A DNA stretch of 45,736 bases from Candidatus Woesearchaeota archaeon CG10_big_fil_rev_8_21_14_0_10_44_13. Lineage in GTDB: Archaea; Nanobdellota; Nanobdellia; Woesearchaeales; UBA12501. Below are positions 5,167-28,097 of the stretch, in pieces. Below the pieces are notes generated by a model. The model did not search any database, was not told the DNA's origin, and saw only the letters and a list, made by a program, of their open reading frames with translations. Positions within the stretch are counted from its first letter, which is position 1, and each line of letters starts with the position of its first letter. The position numbers and the translations under genes are program-made. Location of the stretch: NCBI GenBank assembly GCA_002762985.1, contig PCXZ01000021.1, positions 1 to 45,736 of the forward strand. Direction: 5' to 3'.

Positions 5167-8100
5167 ATGACAAGGATAAACAAACTGGTGATGCACGGGT
5201 TCAAGACCTTTGCAAAGCGCACAGAGCTTCTTTTCGGAAAGGATTTCAACTGCATTCTCGGCCCTAATGGCTCCGGAAAATCAAATGTCCTAGACGCGCT
5301 GTGTTTTGTCCTGGGAAAAAGCTCAGCGAAAGCACTGAGGAGCGAGAAGGCGTCAAACCTCATCTATAATGGCGGGAAATCAAAAAAACCGGCAAAGGAC
5401 GGCGAGGTTTCCATATACTTTGACAATACGAGCAAGATATTCCCTACTGACGACAAGGAAGTGAAGATCACAAGGATAGTCAGGTCAAGCGGCCAGAGCG
5501 TCTATAAGATAAATGATGAGACAAGGACAAGGCAGCAGATCATCGAGCTCTTGTCCCTGGCGAAGATCGATCCTGACGGCTACAACATAATCCTGCAGGG
5601 CGACATCATGAGGTTCGTCGAGATGTCGCCCGAGGAGAGGAGGATGCTTGTCGAGGAGACTGCGGGCATCTCAATCTATGAGGACAAGAAGGTCAAGGCA
5701 GTCTCAGAGCTGGACCGGGTCGAGGAGAAGCTCAAGGAAGCGGAGATAGTCCTTGCAGAGAGGAAGACCCACCTGCACGAGCTGAGGAACGAGAGGGATC
5801 ATGCAATCAAATTCAAGGACCTTAAGGACCAGATAAAGGTCAACAAGGCCTCGCTCATCTACAGGCAGATCGAAAGGAGGGAATCAGAGAAGAAAGAGCT
5901 TGACGCAAAGCTTGACAAGCAGAAGAAGCTTGTGGAAGAGAAGACAAGCGAGATAAGCGCGATAAAGAATGAGATAAAAACATTGAGGCAGAGGATAGAT
6001 GACATAAACAAGGAGATAGAGGAGAAAGGCGAGAAAGAGCAGATCGACATGAATAAGGGCATAGAGAAGCTCAAGGTCGATATCGCCACATCGAAGAACA
6101 GGATCGAATCAGTCAAGAAAGAGCTGTCGAAGATAAAGGAGAGGAAAGGGCAGCTTAAGCAGAACAATGATGATCTCAGGTCGAAGATAAAGAATCTGGA
6201 AGACCAGAAAGCAGACTTGCAGAAGCAGATTTCCAACAGGGATAAGGAGATAAAATCCATAGAGAAGAGCATAACTGAGTTCAGGAAGAAGAACAAGCTT
6301 GATGATGTGGAAGTCCTCGAGAAGGACATAGACAAGATAGACAAGGGCGCCGAGGACAAGCAGAAAGAGATACAGGACCTCAGGCAGAAGCAGCAGGACA
6401 TGCTCAGGGAGAAGGACAGGCTTGAGCTGCAGATACAGGCCATAGACGAGAGGATAAACAAGGTCCTCTCAGTCGAGAAAGAGAACAAGGAGCAGATAGT
6501 GAAGCTCAAGCAGATGAGGGAGGAGTTCAAGAAAGCGACTGCAGAGCTGAACAAGAGATTGAGCGACGATTCAGAGCTTGCAGCCCAGTTGGGGAATGCA
6601 AGGGCGATGATGCTCAAATACCAGGAAGACGTGTCAAAGCTCGAGACAAAGAGCCTTTCCATACAGGAGAGGCTTGGCGCAGAGAGCTCGATAACAAAGA
6701 TACTCAACCAGAAGGACAAGATAAAGGGGATCTACGGCACAGTTTCAGAGCTGGGCAAGGTAAGCTCTAAATATTCTCTTGCGATGGAGATCGCAGCCGG
6801 CCCCAAGATATCATCCATCATAGTGCAGGATGACAAGACGGCGGCAGAATGCATAAAATACCTCAAGACAAACAAGCTGGGCATAGCGACATTCATCCCA
6901 CTGAACAAGATCAAGCCGCAGCCGATAAGGCCGGAAGTCGAGCAGCTGAAATCGGCGAATGGCGCAGTAGGCATGGCAATAGACCTTGTGAGCTTTGACC
7001 CGAAATTCAAGAACGCATTCTCATATGTCTTCGGCAACACGCTCATAGTCGAGAACATAGACGTCGCAAGAAGGATAGGCATAGGCAGCGCAAAGATGGC
7101 GACGCTTGACGGCGACCTCACAGAGGTGAGCGGAGCGATGCAGGGAGGCCACAGGAAGAGGGGAAGCTCAGGCTTGGGCTTCAGCGAGAAGGAGATCGAG
7201 AAGGATCTCAAGGAATGCGAGAAAAGGCTTGATGACACCACTGCCCTAGTCTCAAGGCTCGATAAGGACAAGAAGAGCAATGAGGAAGAGATAGAGAGAT
7301 TAAGGATATTCAAGGCCAATCTCGAGGGAGATACCATAAAGCTCGAGAAATCGCTCCACCTGGATTCCGGCGACATGGAAGCATCAAGGAAGCAGAGGGA
7401 CGAATACAAGAAATCACTGAACGAATCAGAGAAAAAGATAGACCGGATAATCGAGATGATATCTGAATGCAACAAGGAGCTTGCAGAGAACAAGGCGAAG
7501 AGACAGGAAGTAAGGAACAGGATAAATGAGCTCAGGAATCCTGCATTGCTTGCAGAGCTCAATGCATTCGAGGACAAGAGGAACCAGCTCAAGGAGGAGC
7601 TGCTGGGCCTGAACGGCGAAGCGAAGAACCTCGATGCGCAGTCATCCAACATACTCATGCCGGAGCTTGATAACATCAGGAAGATAGACTCCCAGCTCGA
7701 CAAGGAGGAGGATGATTTCAGGAAAGAGATCGAGCTCCTTAACGAGGAGATAACAAACATGGGCGTTGACCTCAAGGAGAGGGAGGAAAAACAGAAGAAA
7801 TTCCAGACAAAATTCAAGGGCCTGTTCGCCGAGAAAGGGAAGATAGACGAGAAGATAAAGAAGGATGATGGGAAGATAGAGGGGCTCTCGGACAGGTCAA
7901 GGGAAGTCGAGCAGAGGGTCAATGAGATAAACATAGAATGCGCAAAAGTTAAGGCGGAATTGTCAGGATTCATGGAAGAGTTCAAGGAGTATGAGGGCGT
8001 CGAGGTCGTTAAGAACAAATCAGAGCAGGACCTCAGGAAGGAGATAGGCACCTGCGAAGGCGTCCTTACAAAGATGGGATCAGTCAACATGAGGGCGCTT

Positions 8101-8664
8101 GAGATCTATGAGCAGGTAGAGAATGAGTACAGCGAGCTTTCGAAGAAGAAAGAGAGGCTGGTGCTCGAGAAGGAAGATGTATTGATCATGATAAACGAGA
8201 TCGAGCTGAAGAAGAAGGATCTTTTCATGGGCTCATTCGATGTAGTGAATGCCAATTTCAAGAACATATTCTCGGCATTGTCGACAAAAGGGGAGGCTTC
8301 CCTTGTCCTTGAGAATGATGAGATGCCGTTTGAGGGCGGGATACTAGTGAAGGTCAGGATAACCGGGACAAAATTTATGGATATAAGGAGCCTTTCAGGC
8401 GGCGAGAAGTCAATGACTGCTCTTGCCTTCATATTCGCGATACAGGAGAATGAGCCTGCGTCATTCTATGTGCTGGACGAGGTCGATGCGGCGCTGGACA
8501 AGAAGAACTCGGAGAAACTGTCGCAGCTGGTCAAGAAGTACTCCGAGAAGGCCCAGTACATACTCATAAGCCACAATGACGGTGTCATAAGCGAGGCGAG
8601 CACGCTTTACGGAGTTTCCATGGACGAGAACGGCATGAGCAATGTGGTCAGTTTGAGGATTTGA
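5167..8664 (+). CDS. smc: Chromosome segregation protein SMC
   Basis: 1165 residues with the full SMC plan: N-terminal Walker A GPNGSGKS (residues 32-39), a long coiled coil, a hinge (about 515-680), a second coiled coil, then the ABC signature LSGGEKS (about 1076) and Walker B YVLDEVDAALD (about 1101). SMC dimers bind ATP between heads and tether or extrude DNA loops for chromosome folding and segregation. Length is normal. The partner ScpA/ScpB genes are not in this window. A TATA-like CTTTAAAC lies about 25 bp before the start, so a very short leader is likely; another TATA-like TATTTATAA overlaps the end of the lgt-like gene. The coding strand is very rich in AAG/GAG codons, as expected from the coiled coil. 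Confidence 0.97.
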   Translation: MTRINKLVMHGFKTFAKRTELLFGKDFNCILGPNGSGKSNVLDALCFVLGKSSAKALRSEKASNLIYNGGKSKKPAKDGEVSIYFDNTSKIFPTDDKEVKITRIVRSSGQSVYKINDETRTRQQIIELLSLAKIDPDGYNIILQGDIMRFVEMSPEERRMLVEETAGISIYEDKKVKAVSELDRVEEKLKEAEIVLAERKTHLHELRNERDHAIKFKDLKDQIKVNKASLIYRQIERRESEKKELDAKLDKQKKLVEEKTSEISAIKNEIKTLRQRIDDINKEIEEKGEKEQIDMNKGIEKLKVDIATSKNRIESVKKELSKIKERKGQLKQNNDDLRSKIKNLEDQKADLQKQISNRDKEIKSIEKSITEFRKKNKLDDVEVLEKDIDKIDKGAEDKQKEIQDLRQKQQDMLREKDRLELQIQAIDERINKVLSVEKENKEQIVKLKQMREEFKKATAELNKRLSDDSELAAQLGNARAMMLKYQEDVSKLETKSLSIQERLGAESSITKILNQKDKIKGIYGTVSELGKVSSKYSLAMEIAAGPKISSIIVQDDKTAAECIKYLKTNKLGIATFIPLNKIKPQPIRPEVEQLKSANGAVGMAIDLVSFDPKFKNAFSYVFGNTLIVENIDVARRIGIGSAKMATLDGDLTEVSGAMQGGHRKRGSSGLGFSEKEIEKDLKECEKRLDDTTALVSRLDKDKKSNEEEIERLRIFKANLEGDTIKLEKSLHLDSGDMEASRKQRDEYKKSLNESEKKIDRIIEMISECNKELAENKAKRQEVRNRINELRNPALLAELNAFEDKRNQLKEELLGLNGEAKNLDAQSSNILMPELDNIRKIDSQLDKEEDDFRKEIELLNEEITNMGVDLKEREEKQKKFQTKFKGLFAEKGKIDEKIKKDDGKIEGLSDRSREVEQRVNEINIECAKVKAELSGFMEEFKEYEGVEVVKNKSEQDLRKEIGTCEGVLTKMGSVNMRALEIYEQVENEYSELSKKKERLVLEKEDVLIMINEIELKKKDLFMGSFDVVNANFKNIFSALSTKGEASLVLENDEMPFEGGILVKVRITGTKFMDIRSLSGGEKSMTALAFIFAIQENEPASFYVLDEVDAALDKKNSEKLSQLVKKYSEKAQYILISHNDGVISEASTLYGVSMDENGMSNVVSLRI

Positions 8665-8764: not shown

Positions 8765-9325
8765 ATGCCTAAAACAGAAGAGAACCTGAAAAGCGCATTC
8801 GCAGGCGAGAGCCAGGCGCGCAACAAATACGACTATTTCGCGAAGATCGCCAGGAATGAAGGCTTCCATTACATAGCGAAGATATTCGAAGAGACCGCAT
8901 TGAATGAGATGCAGCATGCAAAAGACGAGTTCAAGCTTCTCAAGGGATTAGGCAGCACAAAAGCGAATCTCAAGGCTGCAATCGAGGGAGAACATTACGA
9001 GAATACTGAGATGTACCCAAAGATGCAGAAAGAGGCAGAGAAAGAAGGCAATAAAGAAGCTGCAAAGCTCTTCAAGGAGGTCTCTGAAGTAGAAGCGCAT
9101 CACGAAGAGAGATACATAAAGATCCTCGAGATGGTCGAGAAAGGCACAGTCTACAAGAGGGATAAGCCTATAAGATGGAAATGCAGCAAGTGCGGTTATA
9201 TCCATGCGGGAAAAGAACCGCCAGAGAAATGCCCTTCATGCAAGCACGAACGTGCTTATTACGAGCCAGAATGCATGTGCTTCAGCGAGGATTGCGAAGC
9301 ATGCAGCATAAAAACATCGAGGTGA
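8765..9325 (+). CDS. rbr: Rubrerythrin
   Basis: 186 residues. The N-terminal ferritin-like four-helix domain carries the diiron ligands, seen as [23 protein letters not shown] and EVEAHHEE. The C-terminal rubredoxin-like domain has CSKCGY and CPSCKH, the two CxxC pairs for a single iron. Rubrerythrin reduces hydrogen peroxide in anaerobes and microaerophiles with electrons from rubredoxin or a similar donor, in the cytoplasm. It is followed after 4 bp by superoxide reductase, so the two steps superoxide to peroxide to water are co-transcribed. Unusual: a cysteine-rich tail of about 20 residues ([12 protein letters not shown]) follows the rubredoxin domain and is not part of the standard fold. 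Confidence 0.95.
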
Positions 9326-9329
9326 AAGA

Positions 9330-9707
9330 ATGACGGAACTCAATCAGATATACAAATGCAGCGTATGCGGCAATATGGTGGAAGTAGTGCATGCAAGCGG
9401 CGGCCAGTTGGTCTGCTGCGGAAAGGAGATGATCCCCCTCAAGGAGAATTCGACTGATGCAAGCCAGGAAAAGCATGTCCCCGTCATAGAGAAGACAAAA
9501 GACGGATTCAAGGTCAAGATAGGATCAGTGCCCCACCCGATGGAAGAGGTGCATCACATCGAATGGATAGAATTGATTGCCGACGGCATTTCTTACAGGA
9601 GATTCCTGAAGCCAGGCGGCAAGCCGGAAGCCGTATTCTGCATAGCCGCAAAGAAGATAGCAGCAAGGGAATACTGCAATCTGCACGGATTGTGGAAGGG
9701 AAATTAA
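9330..9707 (+). CDS. dfx: Desulfoferrodoxin / superoxide reductase
   Basis: 125 residues. The N-terminal desulforedoxin-like domain has YKCSVCGN and LVCCGKEM, four cysteines for the FeS4 site. The C-terminal neelaredoxin-like domain provides the catalytic Fe ligands: His in [22 protein letters not shown], and the terminal Cys/His pair in EYCNLHGLW. It reduces superoxide to hydrogen peroxide without making oxygen and would feed the rubrerythrin encoded directly upstream. The 4-bp gap implies one mRNA. Length is typical of two-domain (2Fe) SOR. Confident. Confidence 0.95.
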
Positions 9708-13506: not shown

Positions 13507-14121
13507 TCACGCCTTAATCCTCTTCAATCTAAATATGCCCTCGCGTTCCATCTCTTCAAGCCTCAGCTTTATGAACGCTTCTGTCTGCTGCATCTTCGGG
13601 ATCACTGCGAATTCCAATGCATTCACCCTTCTCTTCGTCTTCTCGATCTCCTGGAGCATCTTTTTCATCGAGGTCTCTATCTCAGCTGCAAGGATGACCT
13701 TCTCGACGACCTTCTCATACGCCTTTGCAGCCTCGTCGATCGCTGCAGAGCTCCCTACAAACCCATATCCCCTGTCGAACATGCTCTTCTGGATGCCCTG
13801 GCTCTCTATCTGAGGCACTTTGACGCCCATGATGTTCTTCGTCTTCAGGCTTATCTCGGGCTGCTGCTGGATGGCCATGGCCAAAGACTTTATACTATCA
13901 TCCGTGTCTGAAACCCTCGCTATGTTTATCGCATGCAGGGCTTTCTCATATTCCCCGACAAGCTCCTGCCTGAGGGTCTTCGCCCTCTTCAATACCTCGA
14001 AGAATTCCAGGATGAGCCCATCCCTCTTCTTCTTCAGCAGATTATAGCCCGATTTAGCCAGTTTGATCTTCTTCTTGAGCTTTATCAGTTCGCTTCTTGT
14101 CGGTTTTATGTCGAGCGCCAT
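13507..14121 (-). CDS. atpD: A-type ATP synthase subunit D
   Basis: 204 residues. The N-terminus PTRSELIKLKKKIKLAKSGYNLLKKKRDGL is the characteristic start of V/A-type subunit D, the long coiled coil of the central rotor stalk; a matching C-terminal coil (MKKMLQEIEKTKRRVNALE) closes the antiparallel hairpin. Subunit D couples rotation of the membrane ring to catalysis in the A3B3 head. It is the last gene of the operon, separated from subunit B by an additional 282-residue gene, which breaks the usual A-B-D order. Length is standard. Confidence 0.95.
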   Translation of the reverse strand: MALDIKPTRSELIKLKKKIKLAKSGYNLLKKKRDGLILEFFEVLKRAKTLRQELVGEYEKALHAINIARVSDTDDSIKSLAMAIQQQPEISLKTKNIMGVKVPQIESQGIQKSMFDRGYGFVGSSAAIDEAAKAYEKVVEKVILAAEIETSMKKMLQEIEKTKRRVNALEFAVIPKMQQTEAFIKLRLEEMEREGIFRLKRIKA

Positions 14122-14169: not shown

Positions 14170-15015
14170 TCATATTTTATGCTCCCTTAAATCATAAACA
14201 ATCCCCTTCTCGATGAGATATGCATGTGTTATCAAGGCAGTATCAGAATACTTGCATCTGTTCATCGTGAGCATACCAAATACAAGCTTCTTATCATCAT
14301 GGTCGCTGCCGTGAGAAGGTAATCCTTTCAATATCCCCACTAATCTTGATGTCATCACATCTATATTCTTTCTTACCATGAAATCCATCCCTCTGGACAT
14401 CTTTTCGTCATGATCCGCTCCTGAATCATATATCTTCCTGAATTGGTCCTTGAATGGCATAAGCCCGATAACAATCTTCCCTATCTTATCTTCATCCCAT
14501 TCAGGGAGGTCTTTCGGAACCTCTTCTTTGCCTATAAGCCTGTTTAGCACATGACCCATAGCTCCGCATGTTGGCCTAAGGGTCCCATCACGCTCGCTTT
14601 CAACATAACCGCATAATATCCTCTTGTCAGATGGCCTTTGCCATACTCCATAATGGCCTGAAAAAATGAATATATTTGACGAATGGCCCTTATGCGCCGA
14701 AACAGAGACTGGCTGGCTGAATATATTCGGCCCTATCACATGCTGCGTGAAGGCTTTGCCGAAATAATACCCAAGCTTCATCTTTTCTATCCCATTCTCT
14801 TCATCAGCACAATCCCAGGATGCCACATGGATATCTTTCATCCCAACTCTGTTTGCAACTTTCTTTATCGTGTTATAGACAAATTTTGTGTCAGGCTCTT
14901 TTCCGACATACTCATGTTCCTGGAAAATCAATTTATTTTCCGGAGTCGGCACCAATTCATAACCTTTGACCTTCGTGATATTGGTTTTGTTAGCCATTTC
15001 TTCAAGTCCTCCCAT
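14170..15015 (-). CDS. LCIB/C-type carbonic-anhydrase-like protein in the ATPase operon (tentative)
   Basis: 282 residues from the ATG at 15015 (a GTG at 15024 and an ATG at 14997 are alternatives). It is not an ATPase subunit. The order of motifs resembles the LCIB/C carbonic anhydrase domain: SWDCADEEN (Cys69, Asp71, Glu72), a glycine/phenylalanine stretch, SAHKGHSSNIFIFSGHYGVW (His108, His121), CGYVESERDG and TCGAMGHVLNRL (Cys150). In LCIB proteins a Cys, a His and a Cys bind zinc near Asp/Arg, and the phrase before the second Cys runs like H..dG.n.fi.yGPHvGi...G.v.R....CGA. If right, the enzyme interconverts CO2 and bicarbonate. The match is from memory of the family pattern, not an alignment. 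Position between subunits B and D suggests cotranscription with the ATP synthase. Confidence 0.5.
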   Translation of the reverse strand: MGGLEEMANKTNITKVKGYELVPTPENKLIFQEHEYVGKEPDTKFVYNTIKKVANRVGMKDIHVASWDCADEENGIEKMKLGYYFGKAFTQHVIGPNIFSQPVSVSAHKGHSSNIFIFSGHYGVWQRPSDKRILCGYVESERDGTLRPTCGAMGHVLNRLIGKEEVPKDLPEWDEDKIGKIVIGLMPFKDQFRKIYDSGADHDEKMSRGMDFMVRKNIDVMTSRLVGILKGLPSHGSDHDDKKLVFGMLTMNRCKYSDTALITHAYLIEKGIVYDLREHKI

Positions 15016-15054: not shown

Positions 15055-16563
15055 TTACTTCTTTTTCTTCGTTTTCTGCTTCTGCTTGGGTTTTGCAGCC
15101 TTTTTCGGCTCCTTGTTCGCAGGCTTCTCTCTCTTCTCAGCCTTCGCCTCTGCCTTCACGTCAGCAGATGCAGGAGCGCCTTCATTCACATAATCGGACT
15201 CCTTCCCGTAATACTTGTCTTTCATCTCAGGGCTTATCCTTGTCAGTTCATCCCTGGGTATCGCCTTGAGCATCCTCCATCCTATCGTGAGCGTTCCCTG
15301 TATCGTCCTGTCTTCCCTTCTTCCCTGCCTGACGAACTTGTCCTCGAATTCAGCAGCGAACTTGAGCAGTCTCTTGTCTCTCTCGCTCAATGCCTCTTCT
15401 CCTACGATCGCAACAAGGCCCCTCAAGTCCCTTCCTTCTGCATAGTTGGCATACATCTGGTCTGATACCTGCTTGTGGTCTTCCCTTGTCTTGCCTTTGC
15501 CTATGCCTGCGTTCATCAGCCTTGAAAGCGACGGAAGCACGTCAATCGGCGGATATACATTTTTCCTGTGCAATTCCCTGCTCAATACGATCTGCCCTTC
15601 AGTGATATATCCTGTAAGGTCAGGTATGGGGTGTGTTATATCATCGCCTATCATCGTCAGTATGGGGAACTGTGTTATAGAGCCTTTCCTTCCCTGCACC
15701 ATGCCTGCTCTCTCGTAGATTGTAGCCAGATCAGTGTACATGTAGCCAGGATAACCCCTTCTTCCGGGGATTTCCTCTCTTGCTGCTCCGATCTCCCTCA
15801 GCGATTCGCAGTAGTTCGTCATGTCCGTAAGGATGACAAGGACGTGCATGTCCTTCTCATAAGCGAAATATTCTGCTGCGGTCAGCGCCATCTTTGGAGT
15901 GATGAGCCTCTCGACAGCAGGATCATCTGCAAGGTTCAGGAACACGACGCTCCTTTCCAATGCGCCTGTCTCCTCGAAATCCCTCATGAAATACTGTGCC
16001 TCTTCGTTTGTTATGCCCATCGCTGCGAATATGACCACGAATTTCTCCTGCTGGCCCACAACTTTGGCCTGCCTTGCGATCTGCAGTGCTATCTCATTAT
16101 GGGGCAGTCCTGAGCCTGAGAAAATAGGCAGTTTCTGTCCCCTGACCAATGTGTTCATTGCGTCAATCGTCGAGATTCCTGTCTGGATGAAATCTCTCGG
16201 AGGCCCTCTTGAATAAGGGTTGATTGCTGCTCCCGTTATGTCCATCTTCTTCTCAGGGATGATCTCAGGTCCGCCGTCAATAGGCTTCCCAGCTCCGTTG
16301 AGGATCCTTCCAAGCATGTCCTCTGAGACAGGCAGCTTGATGGTCTCCCCGAGGAATTTCACTCCTGATGCCTTGTCTATGCCCCTGGTGCCTTCGAACA
16401 CCTGCACGACTACGATGTCATCGCTGGTGTCAAGCACCTGGCCGTTCTTTGTTGTGCCGTCAGGCAACGCAATCCTCACAAGGTCCGCATATCCTATCGG
16501 CTCTGTTTTTTCGACGAAAACCAGTGGTCCTGCAATCCTTTTTATTGTCCTGTATTCTTTCAT
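15055..16563 (-). CDS. atpB: A-type ATP synthase subunit B
   Basis: 502 residues. [20 protein letters not shown] at the start, [19 protein letters not shown] in the nucleotide-domain loop that is not a true Walker [15 protein letters not shown], and [21 protein letters not shown] identify the non-catalytic B subunit, which alternates with A in the head. Unusual: after the normal end of the family (about residue 460) there is a 40-residue Ala/Lys/Glu/Pro tail ending in a run of lysines, of low complexity and probably disordered. SD GGTGAT precedes the ATG. The gene is 55 bp from subunit A upstream. Confidence 0.96.
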
Positions 16564-16618: not shown

Positions 16619-18412
16619 TCATTTTATCAGCCTGTCGAAATCCGCATTCATCTCTTTCTGCACATCAGCCAGCAGCTTCTCGTGCTGCTTCGTGAATTTC
16701 GCATCAGCAATCTTGTTCTTTGACCTTATCTGCAGTATGTCCTTGATCCTTGCCCCCTTGTCAAGGGCATTGTTGGCAAGATCCGAGAAATGCATTATGA
16801 TCTTCATCATCAGATAGCTCTTCTTTAGCTCACAGAAGGTATCTACCTCATGGTATGCGTTCTGCTGCAGCATGAATTCCCTGATCATCCTTGCCACTTC
16901 AAGCACGATCTGCTGTTTTTCCGGCAATGCATCAGAGCCTACAAGCTGCACGATCTCCATGAGCTTCTCCTCCTCCTGCAGTATTGTCATCATCTTGTCT
17001 ACAAGAGGCCTCCATTCTGCAGATACGTTCTGCGCGAACCAGGGTTCCAGCACGTCAAGATACAATGAGTATGATATAAGCCAGTTTATCGAAGGGAAAT
17101 GCCTTCTCTGGGCCAGTTTCGCATCCAATGCCCAGAAAGTCTTCGTGACCCTCAATGTTCCCTGTGTTACAGGCTCTGAGAAGTCTCCTCCTGGAGGACT
17201 GACTGCCCCGATGATTGTGACAGAGCCTTCTTTCGCTTCTTTCTCATTATAGGCCTTCCCCAGAGGGATAACCCTTCCTGCCCTCTCATAGAACTCTGCA
17301 AGCCTTGTAGAGAGGTAGGCAGGGTAGCCTTCTTCGCCCGGCATCTCCTCAAGCCTTGACGAGATCTCCCTCATGGCCTCTGCCCATCTTGATGTCGAGT
17401 CTGCCATCAATGAGACACTGTAACCCATGTCCCTGAAATATTCCGCTATAGTGATACCTGTGTAGACAGAAGCTTCTCTTGCTGCCACAGGCATATTCGA
17501 TGTGTTCGCTATAAGCACTGTCCTGTTCATGAGGGGCCTGCCGTTCTTAGGGTCTATTAGATGAGGGAATTCTGTAAGGACTTCTGTCATCTCGTTTCCC
17601 CTCTCGCCGCACCCTATATAGACTACGATGTCAGCATCAGACCATTTTGCTAGCTGCTGCTGGCTTACTGTCTTTCCTGCACCGAAAGGCCCAGGGATTG
17701 CTGCAGTTCCTCCTTTTGCCAATGGGAAAAGGACATCGAATATCCTCTGTCCTGTTATCAATGGCATCTCGGGGGCCAGTTTTTTCTTGTTGGGCCTTGG
17801 TACCCTAACAGGCCATTTCTGCATCATCATGATCTCTTTTTTTCCGTCGATCACGGCAACAGTCTCCTCGACCGTGAATTTTCCTGATTTTATGTCTGTG
17901 ATCTTTCCGCTAATGCTTGGCGGGACCATTATCTTATGGACCATCCCCTGCGTCTCTTCTACCTCTCCGATGACATCTCCTCCTTTCACACTATCGCCTT
18001 TCCTTGCGATTGCCTTGAATTCCCATTTCTTATGGAGATCAAGGCCGTCTGCATAGACTCCTCTTGAGATGAAGTCCCCTACTTTTTTCTGAAGGACCGG
18101 CAATGGCCTCTGGATGCCGTCATAGATGCTCGTGAGCAATCCCGGACCCAGCTCGACTGCGAGGGGCAATCCTGTGTTCGTGACAGGCTCTCCTGGTTTT
18201 ATGCCTGAAGTATCCTCATAGACCTGTATGACACACTTATCGTCTGTGATCTGGATGACCTCGCCCATCAGTTTCTCATTACCGACCCTGACCACATCAT
18301 ACATCCTTGCTTTGAGACCCTTTGCTACTACGACAGGGCCTGCAATCCTGTACAATACTCCCTTGTCTTTGCCCTCTTTGCCTGATTCTGTTTTTTGATT
18401 CTCCTTTGCCAT
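16619..18412 (-). CDS. atpA: A-type ATP synthase catalytic subunit A
   Basis: 597 residues with Walker A GPFGAGKT, the following [26 protein letters not shown] segment, and [26 protein letters not shown], all hallmarks of the catalytic V/A subunit; the additional non-homologous region of V/A subunits lies between about residues 110 and 200. It hydrolyses or makes ATP at the A/B interface. No intein is present, which is worth noting as this gene is an intein site in some archaea. SD GGTGGT precedes the ATG. Length is standard. Confidence 0.97.
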
Positions 18413-18502: not shown

Positions 18503-18811
18503 TCAGCTCTTCCAAAGGTCCACACCTATTGATTTCAGGATCATCTTCCTCAATGCCTCCTGCGCAGTCGATTCGGCAGACACGATGACTGTGACAGGCC
18601 TTACTGATATCTCAACATCCTCTCTTGTCCTGTCATCAAGGCTTTGGATTGTTTTATCATCGGTTATTATTATCCCTACTTCCGCATCCTGCATCATCTC
18701 CCTGAATATTTTCGCGGCTTCTGCGCCCGATTCCGCATCGAACACTTTCCTTATCCCTGAAATCCTGAACCCGAGCGTGAATTCAGGGATACCTATGACT
18801 GCTAGCTCCAT
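18503..18811 (-). CDS. atpF: A-type ATP synthase subunit F
   Basis: 102 residues. MELAVIGIPEFTLGFRISGIR at the start, EVGIIITDDKTIQSL in the middle, and PVTVIVSA at the end match subunit F, a small Rossmann-like protein that binds the central stalk with D and regulates ATP hydrolysis. It sits in its usual place between C and A in the operon, 16 bp downstream of subunit C and 90 bp upstream of A. Length is standard. Confidence 0.92.
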   Translation of the reverse strand: MELAVIGIPEFTLGFRISGIRKVFDAESGAEAAKIFREMMQDAEVGIIITDDKTIQSLDDRTREDVEISVRPVTVIVSAESTAQEALRKMILKSIGVDLWKS

Positions 18812-18827: not shown

Positions 18828-19922
18828 TTATCCTCCTATCACAAGCTGGCTCTCGATGAATTCCTCTTTCATGCCGAGCTGCTTCCCTTTGATTATCGTC
18901 TTGAGATTCCTTATCTCGATCTCTTTTGCGAGCATATACCCCAGGATGACCTCTATTGACAATGGGTGCTGGTGCAGAAGCAAGGCTGCCCTGTCAAGCA
19001 GGAACTTGTTCAGCTTCAATTCCATCATGATTATGCTGTCCTTGCTCTTCTCAAGCTCCCTTGATATCTTCCCATACCCTTCTTTTGACAATGATTTTAT
19101 CATCGAACCCAGGTCATCAGCCTCAGAAAGCCTGTTCAGCTCTTGCGGCCCGAGCTTGGCGCCCGGGTAGAAAAGGTATCTTTTTATCTCTCTCTTGTTC
19201 GCCTTCTCTTTCTTCAGCCTGAGCATGACCCTCAGGTTGAGCATGTCTATCTCATTCTCTACGAACTCCCTGAAAAATAGGCCCTGCTTAGGCATCCTTT
19301 TTGCAAATTCAAGCAGGTATGAGTAATAATCATGGTCTATCGCGTTTTCGAGCTCAAACAGGCTCTTTTTTTCCTTGTATGAATGTACAGCCTCCTTCAG
19401 ATTATCAAACCTTATGAAATTAAGCGATCTTACTATCTCTTCGACAGATTCCTTCTTTGAGAGGTCTGTGAAGAAGCTCTCGTCAAGCTTCCCGGTAGGC
19501 ATCACAAGGCTTTTTATGTCCTCTTCTTTCTGTCTGCTGTGCCTTGCCCTGAGTATCGTCTTTATGTTCCAGATGTCCCTTCTCATAGCATATGCATCAA
19601 TCAGCTCTGCAAGGTTCTTATCCTCTGTTATCCTCTTCAGCTTCAGGGAAGTCCTGAGGAGATTCACATTGAGGGCATTCTCTATCAGGCTCACTCCGGA
19701 GTAATCTGACCCTAGCTCGTCTATCTCTTTCTTGTATTCGGTATCCTGCAGGAATTTCGCTATCTCGCTCAATTTCATCTTGAGGAGCTTCGAATACGCA
19801 TCTTTCTTTATGAGCTTGGCCCTCATCGCGCATATCCTTGCGTAGGTATAAGGGTACTCCTTCAGCTTCAGTTTGCCCTGTCTCTTATTTTCTTCTTCAG
19901 GTGATATCTTCCTTTTTGCCAT
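18828..19922 (-). CDS. atpC: A-type ATP synthase subunit C
   Basis: 364 residues from the ATG at 19922. The frame is open further up to 20024, but those 34 residues include two out-of-place cysteines, overlap the end of subunit E and do not resemble the family, so the shorter start is preferred. YPYTYARICAMRAKLIKKDAYSKLLKM at the N-terminus, VNLLRTSLKLKRI, and repeated helical pieces such as DIWNIKTILRAR and EIEIRNLKTIIKGK match the subunit C/d fold, the socket that joins the membrane K ring to the central stalk. Mostly helical and basic, without membrane segments. Confidence 0.92.
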   Translation of the reverse strand: MAKRKISPEEENKRQGKLKLKEYPYTYARICAMRAKLIKKDAYSKLLKMKLSEIAKFLQDTEYKKEIDELGSDYSGVSLIENALNVNLLRTSLKLKRITEDKNLAELIDAYAMRRDIWNIKTILRARHSRQKEEDIKSLVMPTGKLDESFFTDLSKKESVEEIVRSLNFIRFDNLKEAVHSYKEKKSLFELENAIDHDYYSYLLEFAKRMPKQGLFFREFVENEIDMLNLRVMLRLKKEKANKREIKRYLFYPGAKLGPQELNRLSEADDLGSMIKSLSKEGYGKISRELEKSKDSIIMMELKLNKFLLDRAALLLHQHPLSIEVILGYMLAKEIEIRNLKTIIKGKQLGMKEEFIESQLVIGG

Positions 19923-20001
19923 ATTGTTTTCAGCCTTCAAGCCTAATCGAAAAAGCTTATGGTTTCTGACAGCATTTTGACTGCAAAGGCCAATGCCCGG
20001 C

Positions 20002-20556
20002 TCAGTCAAAAAGCATCTTTGCAATCTCCTGCAGGTAAGTCTTCCTTACATTCTGCAGAAGCTCGTCATAGCTAATGTCAACGACAAAGTTGAGGTCAGG
20101 GCTCTCAGCCACTATCCCCCCGATTATGTCGGTCTCCTTGTATTGGACGCCCGAGATCTTCTGGACGATCTTCCTGTCATTCTCGTTCGCATGGACATAC
20201 TTAACCTCTATGTCCTTCTTCGCCTTTGCCAGGAGCTTCTTTATGTTCTCCTCCCTCTTCCTGTCAGGGAGCTCCCGAAGCTCTTTTTCCACCTGTTCAA
20301 AGACGCTGTCTATGATCTCCTTCTTCCTGTCCAGCTTCATCTTCTTGACATCAAACTCTGCTGCAGCCATGACTTTCCTTTCCATGGCCTCAATCAGTTT
20401 TTTCGTGTCCTCATCGGCACCTTTCCTGTAGGCCTCTATCTCTTCCTTTGTCTTTTTCAGTATGCCTTCAGCTTCGTTTTTCGCTTTCTCGACTATCTTC
20501 CCGGCCTCTTCATCGGCCTTGTCCAATATCTCCTTCTTTACCTGTTCAAGTCCCAT
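20002..20556 (-). CDS. atpE: A-type ATP synthase subunit E
   Basis: 184 residues. The N-terminal half is a long charged coiled coil (EILDKADEEAGKIVEKAKNE), and the C-terminal half is the globular E domain with VHANENDRKIVQKI and GGIVAESPDLNFVVDISYDELL, the two most conserved family motifs. With subunit H it forms the peripheral stalks that hold the head against rotation. It lies between K and C as in the canonical archaeal operon. Confidence 0.93.
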   Translation of the reverse strand: MGLEQVKKEILDKADEEAGKIVEKAKNEAEGILKKTKEEIEAYRKGADEDTKKLIEAMERKVMAAAEFDVKKMKLDRKKEIIDSVFEQVEKELRELPDRKREENIKKLLAKAKKDIEVKYVHANENDRKIVQKISGVQYKETDIIGGIVAESPDLNFVVDISYDELLQNVRKTYLQEIAKMLFD

Positions 20557-20642: not shown

Positions 20643-20876
20643 TTAAGCCGCGCCTGCTATCCCTATTATCAATATTGCAACAACCAGCCCGAAGATGACG
20701 ATTGTCTCTGGGATGACCGTAAGGATGAGGCCTTTACCGAAAAGCCCTTCCTTCTCTGCCATCGCGCCCACTGCGGCCGCTCCAATCTGTTTCTCTGCTA
20801 TGGCTGTTGCGATTGCTGTCACGCTGATTGCAATTCCTGCGCTCAACGCAATCAATCCTGTTTCTATTCCTGCCAT
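20643..20876 (-). CDS. atpK: A-type ATP synthase subunit K (c-ring proteolipid)
   Basis: 77 residues, two transmembrane helices. Helix 2 carries PETIVIFG, with Glu57 the ion-binding carboxylate. The polar loop between helices is KEGLFGKG. Many copies form the rotor ring that translocates H+ or Na+. Only one carboxylate hairpin is encoded, so each ring subunit carries one ion site, in contrast to the fused multi-hairpin forms of some archaea. I cannot decide ion specificity: the Thr after the Glu is compatible with a Na+ site, but the glutamine expected in helix 1 does not align clearly. Strong SD (GGAGGT) before the ATG. Confidence 0.94.
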   Translation of the reverse strand: MAGIETGLIALSAGIAISVTAIATAIAEKQIGAAAVGAMAEKEGLFGKGLILTVIPETIVIFGLVVAILIIGIAGAA

Positions 20877-20981: not shown

Positions 20982-22865
20982 TTACTGTTCATCCCTTGTT
21001 CCGAAAGGAACATATCTCATCCCTCCGCCATGGTAGAATTTCGTGAAAAATTCCACATAATGGAGCCTGAGCGAGTGCAAGAACGGGCTTATAAGGCCGA
21101 GGCCTATGTTTATCACATGGCCGACCACAAGCAATATTGTCCCGCCTATGATCCCTCCGATGCCCGCATGGAATAATTCCCCTGAAAGATCGTTTATGAC
21201 GACTGCAAGTATGACTGAGGCCAATCCTACTGCCATAAGCCTCGCATATGACAGTGTCTGGCTGAATATCGAAGGAAGCTCTACAATCCCCTTTGCGCCT
21301 TCACCCATATATATCATGATGATGGACAATGCAACTATGACAAAACCGACCCATTTTTGCAGAGGCACATAGCCCATATAAGTCAACGCAATGACAGCCA
21401 CTCCTGCCTCAAGGACCATCCAGCTTATCTTCTCGAAGAATGCCGTCCTGAAGCCGTGCGCCCTGAGCTCATTATAGAACCCGACAAGCAGGCCTATGTT
21501 GATATGGACTACGCCGATGGCTATCGCGACATACATCAGCTCGTTCATCTGTTCGTACCTGCTGAGAACGTGCATAAGCTCATATCCGCCGAGCTCTTCA
21601 AAGCCGAAAAATTCCCCGAAGAGGCAGCCGAAGATTATGGCTGAGATGGAGCCGAAGATCATAGCATTAACAAGCCTCCCCATATCACCTTTTATCTTCG
21701 TCCTCAGGTAAAGGAACAGCACCAATGTCACGATGCCATAACCCACATCTCCGAGCATGAAGCCGTAGAACAGCGGGAAAGTCAGGAACATGAGGAATGT
21801 TGGGTCTATCTCCTTGTATTTGGGCAGTGTGTACATATCCATGAAGAATTCGAACGGTTCAATCATCCTTGGATTTTTCAGTTTTATCGGGATATCCTCA
21901 TCCTTTTTGACCTCTTCTGAGAACAGGTGTATCCTCCCTTTTGCGATGTCATCCAGATCATCTGTCACGCTTTTCATCTTTTTTGTCGGAATCCACCCCC
22001 TTATGACGAATGTCTTTTCAGTGGATGCGAATCTCAGCGGCGCTTCTGCCTTCTCAGCCTCTGCTGAAAGGCTCGCTTCTGCATCAATGAGGAAATCCCT
22101 CTCATTTTTTTTCAGGCCGCTTATGGCTGACTCAATGGCTTTCTTTTCCTTTGCCCACCTGCCCATCTCCTCTTTTGCTGCTGACAGGTGTTTCCATGCA
22201 TCGCCTTTCAGCCCTTTGATGCCGCTGACATCGATCTCTGAAAGCCCTCTTCTGGCCAGCACATCTGCAATGTCATTCTTTTTTTCAACATCGAAGAATA
22301 TCGCAATTATGGTTTTTCCTTCGCAATATGCATGATAAATCTCATACTTTGATGTTTTTTTGTTCAGCTCTCTCTTGAGTTCGCCAATGTCCTTCACATT
22401 TTCCATGATGCCTACAATGTATGATAATGTCGAATAATCGGTGAAAGAATCAATATCAACTCCCAGAAGCCTAAGCCTCTCGAACAGGATTCTTTTTTCA
22501 TCAAGCTTGCGCATGTTTTCGTCCGCAGCCTTCATGTTTTCCATGCTCCTGTCAAACTCAGCATGGACCTTCTCGACCCTTCTCCTTATCGAATCGATCT
22601 CTTTCTGGGTCAGATTCCCTTCTGCCGCCTTTTTTTCATTTTTAGCCGGATCAATGCCCATGTTCGTGCATAATGCCCTTATCTTGATGAGGATATCTGA
22701 GATGTCCCCCCCTTGCGCCAAAGGAGAGCCTATATCCAGCTCTTCTGTCTTCTTGTGGTCCACTATATGGTATATCTTGAGAGAATACAGCTTATTTATG
22801 ACCACATCCATCACTGTCTTAGGCCCTATGACCGTAAGCTTTGACATCCTTTCTGGCTTGAACAT
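20982..22865 (-). CDS. atpI: A-type ATP synthase subunit I (stator a subunit)
   Basis: 627 residues. The N-terminal half is cytoplasmic with coiled-coil arms (about 50-330); from the middle, PTFLMFLTFPLFYGFMLGDVGYGIVTLVLFLYLRT opens a membrane domain of about seven to eight helices, with the conserved SYARLMAVGLASVILAVVIN helix that contains the essential arginine, and a HSLRLHYVEFFTKFYHGGG ending typical of V/A a-subunits. It provides the ion half-channels against the K ring. Located between H and K, as usual. Length is normal. Confidence 0.96.
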   Translation of the reverse strand: MFKPERMSKLTVIGPKTVMDVVINKLYSLKIYHIVDHKKTEELDIGSPLAQGGDISDILIKIRALCTNMGIDPAKNEKKAAEGNLTQKEIDSIRRRVEKVHAEFDRSMENMKAADENMRKLDEKRILFERLRLLGVDIDSFTDYSTLSYIVGIMENVKDIGELKRELNKKTSKYEIYHAYCEGKTIIAIFFDVEKKNDIADVLARRGLSEIDVSGIKGLKGDAWKHLSAAKEEMGRWAKEKKAIESAISGLKKNERDFLIDAEASLSAEAEKAEAPLRFASTEKTFVIRGWIPTKKMKSVTDDLDDIAKGRIHLFSEEVKKDEDIPIKLKNPRMIEPFEFFMDMYTLPKYKEIDPTFLMFLTFPLFYGFMLGDVGYGIVTLVLFLYLRTKIKGDMGRLVNAMIFGSISAIIFGCLFGEFFGFEELGGYELMHVLSRYEQMNELMYVAIAIGVVHINIGLLVGFYNELRAHGFRTAFFEKISWMVLEAGVAVIALTYMGYVPLQKWVGFVIVALSIIMIYMGEGAKGIVELPSIFSQTLSYARLMAVGLASVILAVVINDLSGELFHAGIGGIIGGTILLVVGHVINIGLGLISPFLHSLRLHYVEFFTKFYHGGGMRYVPFGTRDEQ

Positions 22866-22934: not shown

Positions 22935-23255
22935 TCAGCTGTTCAGCTCTTCCTCGAATTTCTTCAGAACGAATGACTGCGCCTTTTTCAGGTTGTTTCC
23001 GGCCTTTGAATTGATCTTATCTGCCTCTATCCTGCCTTTCTCTATGATCTCTCTCTTCTTATTATCGAGCTCTGCAGCCTTTTTCTCAATGGCCCTGTCT
23101 TTGTTTTTTTCGATCTCTTCTTTTTTCTCATTCAGGAGCCTCATCGAATCATGGTTTGCCTTGCTCATTACACCTTCTCTGCTCTTTTCAGCATCCTCAA
23201 TGATCTTTCTTGCTTTCTCTTCGGCATTCTTTATGTCTTTCAGCGCGTTTTCCAT
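22935..23255 (-). CDS. atpH: A-type ATP synthase subunit H
   Basis: 106 residues, almost entirely a charged coiled coil (ENALKDIKNAEEKARKIIEDAEKSREG at the start), which fits AhaH/subunit H, partner of E in the peripheral stalk. It is the first gene of the operon, in the canonical place before I. An SD-like AAAGGTGG lies before the ATG, and the operon promoter with a 19-bp palindrome lies just upstream. Sequence of coiled coils is weakly specific, so the call leans on position. Confidence 0.85.
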   Translation of the reverse strand: MENALKDIKNAEEKARKIIEDAEKSREGVMSKANHDSMRLLNEKKEEIEKNKDRAIEKKAAELDNKKREIIEKGRIEADKINSKAGNNLKKAQSFVLKKFEEELNS

Positions 23256-25946: not shown

Positions 25947-28097
25947 ATGAGCGAAGTTTTATTGCTAGGCATTGTTTTAGGCATCAGCGTTATCGGTCTT
26001 CTTGCGGCATTCCTGCTCGCGAAGTGGGTCCTTAGGAGGGATACGGGGACCAAGGGCATGCAGGACATATCCAATGCGATCAAGGAAGGCGCTGAAGCTT
26101 TCATGAGGAGGCAGTTCAAGACAATAGTCGTCCTTGCAGTCGCATTCGCGGCAGTACTGTTCATAGGCTATGGCCTCATAAGGTCCCATAGGTCATTTGA
26201 TCCTGTGGATTCTTCATTGGGCCTTGCTTTCTGGATAACATTATCATTCGCTCTCGGAGCATTGTGCTCATTGATTGCAGGCTACATAGGGATGTGGGTC
26301 AGCATAAGGAGCAACATAAGGACGGCAGCAGCGACCATAAAGAGCGTCGATGACGGATTGAGGGTGGCTCTCAGGGGAGGAGCAGTCTCAGGCCTCATGG
26401 TTGTCGCTATGAGCCTTCTTGGAGTAGGCGGTTTGTATGCGCTTGTAAAATACACCACTTCTGTTGTTCCTTCACAAATCCCGTTCCTTATAGTGGGATA
26501 TGGTTTCGGAGCATCATTCGTCGCATTGTTCGCACAGCTTGGCGGCGGAATCTATACAAAGGCAGCAGATGTCGGAGCTGACCTTGTCGGAAAAGTAGAG
26601 GCAGGGATACCAGAGGATGATCCAAGGAACCCGGCAGTCATCGCAGACCTTGTTGGAGATAATGTTGGCGATTGCGCCGGAAGAGGGGCAGACCTTTTCG
26701 AATCCACGGCTGCAGAGAACATTGGAGCCATGATCCTGGGAGCCACAATGGCAATGGCAATACCTGATGTGAATCCAGCATGGGTCATCGGTGTCATGAT
26801 GTTCCCATTGATTGCAAGGGCATTCGGAATCATCGCCTCGATAATAGGCATAATGACGGTCAAAGTGAAAAAAGGCGAAGATCCAATGAAAGCACTGAAC
26901 AGGGGATATTATGTCTCTGCTGCACTGTCGATGATAGGATTCGGCATAGCGACAAGATGGCTTCTTTACAGCCCTACAGCGCCGAATGCGTGGTGGCATT
27001 TCTTCCTTGCAGGGATAGTGGGAGTTTTGGCATCAATCGCTTTTGTCTATATCACCCAGTATTATACTGAATACAAATACAGGCCTACAAAGTCGATTGC
27101 AGAGGCAAGCAAGACTGGGCCCGCGACAAACATAATCACAGGGATCTCAGTAGGCCTTGAAAGCACGGCGCTGCCCGTGATTACGATATCTGTTGCGATA
27201 CTCGCAGCTTATTATCTCGGCAAGACGTCAGGATTCGAGCATGCAGGATTGTTCGGAACAGCAGTAGCCACTATGGGCATGCTTGCGACAGCAGCTTATA
27301 TACTTGCGATGGACACATTCGGACCGATTGCAGACAATGCAGGCGGAATCATAGAGATGAGCCACCAGCCTAAGCAGGTGAGAGACAAGGCTGACAGGCT
27401 TGATGCTGTAGGCAATACGACAAAGGCATTGACGAAAGGATATGCGATAGGCTCAGCAGCGCTGGCCGCATTCTTATTGTTCAGCGCTTATCTTGATGAG
27501 GTAAAGAATTACGGCTCAGCATTGACGGCAGTGGATATAGCAAAGCCTGAAGTGTTTGTAGGAGCATTATTGGGAGCCATGCTCGTGTTCCTGTTCTCTT
27601 CCCTTGCGATAAGGGCAGTAGGGAAAGCGGCTTACTATGTGATAAATGACGTACGCGCTCAGTTCAAGGAGAAGCCGGGCATCCTGAAAGGGACGCAGAA
27701 ACCGGACTATGGAAGGACAGTTGATATTGTCACAAGAGGCGCATTGAAGGAGATGGTCCTGCCGGGATTATTGGCAGTAGCAATGCCAGTTGCTGTCGGA
27801 TTATTGTTCAGGCTTTTAGGAGTAGGCGCTGAGGCAGTCGCAGCATTCCTGATGGTAGGAACTATCGCGGGCATATTGATGGCATTGTTCCTGAACAATG
27901 GCGGAGGAGCCTGGGATAATGCGAAGAAATACATCGAGACAGGCAAGCTAGGCGGAAAAGGCTCTGCTACGCACAAGGCAGCAGTAGTAGGGGATACTGT
28001 CGGAGACCCTTTCAAGGATACTGCGGGGCCATCGCTGCACGTGCTGATAAAGCTGCTGGCGACGATAACGCTGGTACTGGCGCCTCTGTTCATATGA
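25947..28097 (+). CDS. hppA: Membrane-bound ion-translocating pyrophosphatase, K+-independent type
   Basis: 716 residues, about 15-16 transmembrane helices. The active-site loop DVGADLVGKVEAGIPEDDPRNPAVIADLVGDNVGDCAGRGADLFES is diagnostic (motifs near residues 205-250), with a second acidic site NAGGIIEMS and a third GDTVGDPFKDTAGPS at the C-terminus. GNTTKALTKG has Lys493 where K+-dependent enzymes have Ala, marking the K+-independent class, normally proton pumps. It hydrolyses pyrophosphate from biosynthesis and pumps ions outward, which would feed the A-ATPase encoded 2.7 kb away on the other strand. Length is normal. A T-rich terminator follows. Confidence 0.97.
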   Translation: MSEVLLLGIVLGISVIGLLAAFLLAKWVLRRDTGTKGMQDISNAIKEGAEAFMRRQFKTIVVLAVAFAAVLFIGYGLIRSHRSFDPVDSSLGLAFWITLSFALGALCSLIAGYIGMWVSIRSNIRTAAATIKSVDDGLRVALRGGAVSGLMVVAMSLLGVGGLYALVKYTTSVVPSQIPFLIVGYGFGASFVALFAQLGGGIYTKAADVGADLVGKVEAGIPEDDPRNPAVIADLVGDNVGDCAGRGADLFESTAAENIGAMILGATMAMAIPDVNPAWVIGVMMFPLIARAFGIIASIIGIMTVKVKKGEDPMKALNRGYYVSAALSMIGFGIATRWLLYSPTAPNAWWHFFLAGIVGVLASIAFVYITQYYTEYKYRPTKSIAEASKTGPATNIITGISVGLESTALPVITISVAILAAYYLGKTSGFEHAGLFGTAVATMGMLATAAYILAMDTFGPIADNAGGIIEMSHQPKQVRDKADRLDAVGNTTKALTKGYAIGSAALAAFLLFSAYLDEVKNYGSALTAVDIAKPEVFVGALLGAMLVFLFSSLAIRAVGKAAYYVINDVRAQFKEKPGILKGTQKPDYGRTVDIVTRGALKEMVLPGLLAVAMPVAVGLLFRLLGVGAEAVAAFLMVGTIAGILMALFLNNGGGAWDNAKKYIETGKLGGKGSATHKAAVVGDTVGDPFKDTAGPSLHVLIKLLATITLVLAPLFI

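Follow-up and report, generated by a model that had tools for sequence, protein, structure and literature searches.

LCIB/C-type carbonic anhydrases (PF18599; PtLCIB4, 5B5Y; CrLCIB, 5K5W; CrLCIC, 5B5X; 6KFS) are known from the CO2-concentrating mechanism of algae or diatoms. Some homologues, namely algal LCIB and LCIC, adopt the fold and contain zinc but show no measured activity (PMC5876011, PMC9614477), and PtLCIB4 is called constitutively active in a review (PMC9614477). Carbonic anhydrases (CAs) have also been described at membrane ion machines: in the vectorial CO2-hydrating complex DabA/DabB (DAB2) a β-CA-like Cys2His zinc site with an Asp is tied to such a machine (PMC13144422), and γ-CAs are structural parts of mitochondrial complex I, a proton-pumping complex (PMC2900272). 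Woesearchaeota have been described as fermentative and as lacking complexes I-IV while sometimes possessing a V-type ATPase (PMC8421398). Here we analyse a gene, X, in a woesearchaeotal A-type ATPase operon, which probably encodes a divergent LCIB-type zinc enzyme that sits in a slot repeatedly filled by CAs and would buffer the protons moved by the ATPase.

The window, a stretch of 45,736 nucleotides (contig PCXZ01000021.1) from Candidatus Woesearchaeota archaeon CG10_big_fil_rev_8_21_14_0_10_44_13, carries on its minus strand the gene order H, I, K(c), E, C, F, A, B, X, D, i.e. an A-ATPase operon with one extra gene. That such a gene separates subunits B and D had been the starting point of the original prediction and is confirmed by the open reading frame (ORF) and by the Pfam matches of both flanking subunits:

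22935..23255, minus strand: A-ATPase subunit H (position and size, ORF list)
20982..22865, minus strand: A-ATPase subunit I/a (position and size, ORF list)
20643..20876, minus strand: A-ATPase rotor subunit K/c, 77 aa, single hairpin (PF00137)
20002..20556, minus strand: A-ATPase subunit E (position and size, ORF list)
18828..20024, minus strand: A-ATPase subunit C (ORF list; ORF bounds, true start uncertain)
18503..18811, minus strand: A-ATPase subunit F (position and size, ORF list)
16619..18412, minus strand: A-ATPase subunit A (PF00006/PF16886)
15055..16563, minus strand: A-ATPase subunit B (PF00006, 6e-83; PF22919)
14170..15015, minus strand: gene X, LCIB-like carbonic-anhydrase-type protein (ORF, orthologues, alignment, profile, fold search)
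13507..14121, minus strand: A-ATPase subunit D (PF01813, 2e-58)

The ORF of X is intact, ends with the stop codon at 14170-14172 (minus strand) and yields 281 aa from the ATG at 15015 or 275 aa from the ATG at 14997, the upstream ATG fitting the orthologue lengths better. X begins about 40-57 nt past the stop of subunit B, and subunit D starts 48 nt beyond the end of X. Elsewhere in the window, at 5167-8664, 8765-9325 and 9330-9707, lie an SMC-like, a rubrerythrin-like and a desulfoferrodoxin-like gene in this order, as judged by eye.

Two orthologues of X, 50-53% identical, are present in Woesearchaeota genomes of another GTDB family (JACPMW010000026.1, loci L003/L012; JACPTD010000010.1, loci L004/L013), both between subunits B and D as in the window, so that gene and position are conserved in relatives. 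The genes are nearly fused in L012, where only 4 nt separate the B stop codon from the start of X and the stop of X overlaps the start codon of D. A third contig (L009) breaks off 53 codons into X, directly behind B. Pairwise comparison of these orthologues gives a dN of about 0.09 and a dS of about 0.87, and hence a dN/dS of about 0.10. No further convincing X was found among 353 genomes of the order; L005, L010, L011, L019 and L020 were set aside as weak matches, being partial stretches with E values of ~1e-3 to 1e-2 or broken frames. DNA-pattern scans of genome contigs with a single X protein and of viral contigs with X and LCIB gave no match. Subunit A of L012 (1358-4609) appears to be interrupted in its nucleotide-binding loop (GPFGAGKC...HNTVSQQ) by an intein-like element of roughly 500 aa. 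A membrane H+-pyrophosphatase gene lies near the operon in the window (25947-28097, plus strand, PF03030) and also past subunit D in several relatives, e.g. L012:8246-10198 (plus strand).

Searches of Pfam, NCBIfam and PDB sequences with window X gave no match even at E 10, and PF18599 likewise failed to match window X and its orthologues at E 10. A direct PF18599 annotation was dropped as the curated Pfam score is not reached, which suggests a divergent LCIB-like branch rather than a scored member. A profile made from LCIBs only (six true PF18599 proteins from this order), however, matches the X orthologues at 1.4e-6 and 2.6e-6 among 603 ORFs, the best unrelated ORF lying at E 0.12. Window X itself scores only E~4 with this profile, so its assignment to LCIB rests on the 50-53% identical orthologues. 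In a profile-profile comparison of X with LCIB (hhalign) we obtained E 1.3e-5 and a probability of 81, and the ligand residues of both fell into register.

An AlphaFold model of the L012 orthologue, computed from three sequences, reached a pLDDT of 65.4 and a pTM of 0.71, residues 65-108 staying below 50 and the surroundings of C63 being modelled with low confidence; a single-sequence model of window X was discarded (pLDDT 34). Foldseek of the L012 model against the PDB returned LCIB, LCIC, PtLCIB4 or 6KFS at all of ranks 1-8 (E 1.9e-7 to 1.5e-3) and β-CAs at the next five, ranks 9-13. The predicted LCIB/C likeness is thus supported by the LCIB-only profile, by the predicted fold of the orthologue and by Cys-His-Cys ligand residues that align with those of true LCIBs; of the comparison with PF18599 the structural part held, with LCIB/LCIC as first matches, whereas the Pfam model itself gave none. 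No other family with a better score emerged. X does not carry the CxDxR...HxxC pattern of PF00484, and at 1e-5 its own genome contains no PF00484 match. Pfam gave no match of X to DabA (PF10070) at E 10; DabA comprises roughly 800-1000 aa, X 275-281. Gene X is, judging by these comparisons of sequence, a divergent LCIB-like branch that Pfam leaves undetected, the enzyme family itself being already known.

CADEE, GHYG and CGA motifs are all present in window X, and the resemblance of this pattern to LCIB goes beyond chance: C-x-D-[DE]...H...CGA occurs in 0/582 decoy ORFs as compared to 3/3 X proteins and 6/6 LCIBs. With residues counted from the ATG at 14997 and coordinates computed from the codon numbers, the predicted site comprises:

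14803..14811, minus strand: codons of C63-A-D65, first predicted zinc ligand and the Asp positioning the zinc-bound water, invariant with true LCIBs
14653..14655, minus strand: codon of H115, second predicted zinc ligand (GHYG), invariant with true LCIBs
14560..14568, minus strand: codons of C144-G145-A146, third predicted zinc ligand (CGA), invariant with true LCIBs

In the joint alignment of X and true LCIBs the invariant columns are M1, C63, D65, G89, H115, G130, C144, G145, A146 and P165, and they include the predicted Cys-His-Cys zinc ligand set together with the Asp. Residue 64 of X is small (Ala/Ser) as in PtLCIB4, the motif reading CSDEV in PtLCIB4, CRDEV in its S47R mutant, CSDEEN in the X orthologues and CADEEN in window X. 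The Arg six residues past the first ligand in PtLCIB4 is replaced by Gly in X, which therefore has no Asp-Arg dyad at the corresponding site; an Arg is absent there from most true LCIBs of the slot as well. In CrLCIB/LCIC His162/161 and Arg194/193 are important (PMC5876011). H105 and R136, invariant in X, lie near the region of PtLCIB4 H88 and CrLCIB Arg194, where a shorter loop precludes a clean alignment, and may be their counterparts.

Since true PF18599 genes of the order (L014, L016, L017, L018) were found in the same B-D position as X, we located subunit D order-wide and surveyed the regions between B and D. Searching 353 genomes gave 144 matches to subunit D, and the B-D region was then fetched. 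A gene is present in 23 of the 113 measured junctions, the other 90 being empty, and no inserted gene was seen in nine further loci inspected by eye. The occupants are β-CAs (PF00484) in nine cases, true LCIBs (PF18599) in five and X in three. Three more are mutually different unannotated proteins (L024:2093-3109, minus strand; L043:712-1485, plus strand; L057:111-644, minus strand), all carrying the β-CA-type pattern C-x-D...H-x-x-C-[GA]-A, which two real β-CAs aside is found in 0/582 decoy ORFs; the L024 protein also matches the β-CA profile (E 7e-5), and the three are possible new β-CA-like families. Two occupants, in genomes of different families, are CPA2 cation/H+ antiporters (L033:2113-3267, minus strand; L080:1169-2395, plus strand), which have a pH/ion function as well. 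The remaining occupant is a hexapeptide-repeat protein of 422 aa (L073:109-1374, minus strand) for which PDB and NCBIfam both give γ-CAs as best, though weak, matches (E 0.003 and 7.5e-4), with apparently two of the three His expected in γ-CA. CA signatures thus occur in 20/23 occupants, and 14 of these exceed the Pfam cut-off of PF00484 or PF18599.

Whole genomes were also searched independently of the slot, and PF00484 was detected in 9/233 genomes of the order, with seven of the nine genes in the B-D slot and two outside (L158, L159). If the chance of a random gene to be in this slot is taken as roughly 1/1500, this cannot be coincidence, even considering the shared descent within family f64. 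Genome-wide, 4/5 PF18599 genes over the cut-off lie in the slot as well; the fifth (G013) lies elsewhere, and the slot of that genome holds a β-CA. The A-B gaps of the same operons (18 seen) contain no CA; four of them hold a class-I glutamine amidotransferase (one genome) or a UPF0114 membrane protein (three related genomes; inserts L055:263-979, L070:310-774, L076:428-898 and L081:359-823). Outside the order, 20 genomes of family f79 showed no B-D insertion. In the host genome neither PF18599 nor PF00484 recognises a gene. Its two matches to the γ-CA model, both in sugar-transferase-like loci, were rejected as γ-CAs, since one falls in a nucleotidyltransferase-like hexapeptide protein of 406 aa and the second in a 143 aa frame among sugar-nucleotide transferase genes.

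A tree of subunit B (120 genomes, FastTree, some B sequences partial) requires at least 16 changes between CA and no CA in the slot. In this tree the window genome is closest to G007 (support 98), which has a true LCIB there, and within genus g129 the slot holds X, an LCIB, a β-CA, an unassigned protein with CA signature, an antiporter or nothing.

These distributions bear on what X does. It is unlikely, though to be taken seriously, that X is an ordinary CA which provides bicarbonate for carboxylases and is merely carried along in a strong constitutive operon, having no functional tie to the ATPase. The universal biosynthetic demand for CA, the empty state of about 80% of the B-D junctions in the order and the fact that X is neither fused to nor obligatorily paired with the ATPase would all suit this view, but it leaves unexplained why one junction takes several CA families plus cation/H+ antiporters, why the neighbouring A-B gap takes no CA, and why seven of the nine β-CAs of the order gather at this junction rather than in other operons of high expression.

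We consider it improbable that X is a catalytically dead protein of LCIB fold serving as assembly or structural factor of the ATPase in the manner of LCIC or the complex I γ-CAs. Relatives with no measured activity and structural γ-CAs are on record (see above), and the gene is placed between those of two head/stalk subunits. A scaffold role, however, would not predict that unrelated folds share the slot, including canonical β-CAs with complete CSDSR...HxxC sites, and in X the predicted zinc ligands and the Asp are invariant and the small residue 64 resembles that of the constitutively active PtLCIB4.

The lineage-clustered distribution of some occupants, e.g. five β-CAs in family f64, could also mean that the B-D junction is simply tolerant to insertions and that the CA enrichment reflects shared descent and loss instead of selection. 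This is very improbable, as a neutral spot should gather unrelated genes, yet 0/23 occupants are clearly unrelated to CO2, pH or ion chemistry, and the CA families swap even within genus g129, in addition to the repeated changes on the B tree. Finally, an unrelated metalloprotein resembling LCIB by chance, for which the missing Pfam, NCBIfam and PDB sequence matches could be adduced, is scarcely credible given the fold search, the profile tests, the specificity of the motif and the position common with true LCIBs.

We therefore favour X as an LCIB-type zinc enzyme with β-carbonic-anhydrase fold that would share a transcript with the catalytic-head genes of the A-type ATPase, in a slot which this order seems to refill repeatedly by whichever CA family is at hand. 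In the cytosol X would most likely interconvert CO2 + H2O and HCO3- + H+, at a rate that follows the level of the ATPase, and CO2/HCO3- could serve as fast mobile proton buffer for the ions moved by the ATPase in fermenting cells, supplying or absorbing protons transported by the ATPase and the nearby H+-pyrophosphatase. This would work in either direction, as proton supply for pumping or as proton removal during synthesis. The original prediction had likewise coupled CO2/bicarbonate conversion to the ATPase; we continue to infer this coupling, and the recurrence of unrelated CAs in the same slot greatly strengthens it, with the qualification that 90/113 genomes leave the slot empty and hence no CA is required there. 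As to the coupling ion, a hand alignment of the rotor subunit shows Glu at the Gln/Glu32 equivalent, Glu57, Thr58 and the aliphatic Ile59, an aliphatic residue at the last ligand position being typical of H+ enzymes (PMC2359735). Ile59 would fit H+ and the other ligands Na+, a mixed set by which proton coupling is tentatively favoured.

The proposal can be widened to a CA-rotary ATPase module of Woesearchaeota that would have arisen convergently from at least two recognised CA families (β and LCIB) and the divergent LCIB-like branch, probably others, and sometimes a cation/H+ antiporter in the same slot, with the CA encoded between head and central-stalk genes supplying or absorbing protons at the ATPase; for this wider version we regard the balance as even. 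That unrelated proteins sharing one chemistry refill a single genome position time after time argues strongly for a functional bond. In this case the bond would be between CO2/bicarbonate chemistry and the rotary ATPase, in fermentative archaea that resist cultivation and have a poorly understood energy metabolism. The recurrence also suggests a likely function for an unannotated protein family, and the contents of the B-D slot offer a way to find unrecognised carbonic anhydrases.

In agreement with the statement that no archaeal case had been described, the open-access literature searched for CAs in ATP synthase operons, CAs in Woesearchaeota/DPANN and LCIB in archaea held no precedent. This is weak evidence that both the divergent LCIB-like branch and the recurrent CA slot in a rotary-ATPase operon are undescribed.

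Among known systems, the animal CA transport metabolons treated in reviews share with our proposal the idea that a CA next to acid/base transporters provides or takes up protons, but they are eukaryotic, employ α-CAs and are not organised in an operon. The γ-CA domain of complex I is a precedent for carbonic anhydrases on a proton-pumping complex, yet fold and complex are different, the system is eukaryotic and no rotary ATPase is involved. DAB2 differs in that DabB is an NADH-dehydrogenase/Mrp-type subunit, again with no rotary ATPase, and that DabA belongs to PF10070. With the LCIB/C enzymes X shares the predicted fold, the C-x-D, H, CGA ligand set, a similar length and the C-terminal β segment, whereas it lies below Pfam detection, has no Arg six residues past the first ligand and a shortened loop before the ligand His, and is encoded in an archaeal ATPase operon instead of acting in an algal or diatom CO2-concentrating mechanism. 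From the canonical β-CAs (CxDxR...HxxC) X is distinguished by a spacing of about 28 residues between the His and the second Cys, as in LCIB, but these enzymes belong to the same superfamily, catalyse the same reaction and, in nine related genomes, lie in exactly this B-D slot.
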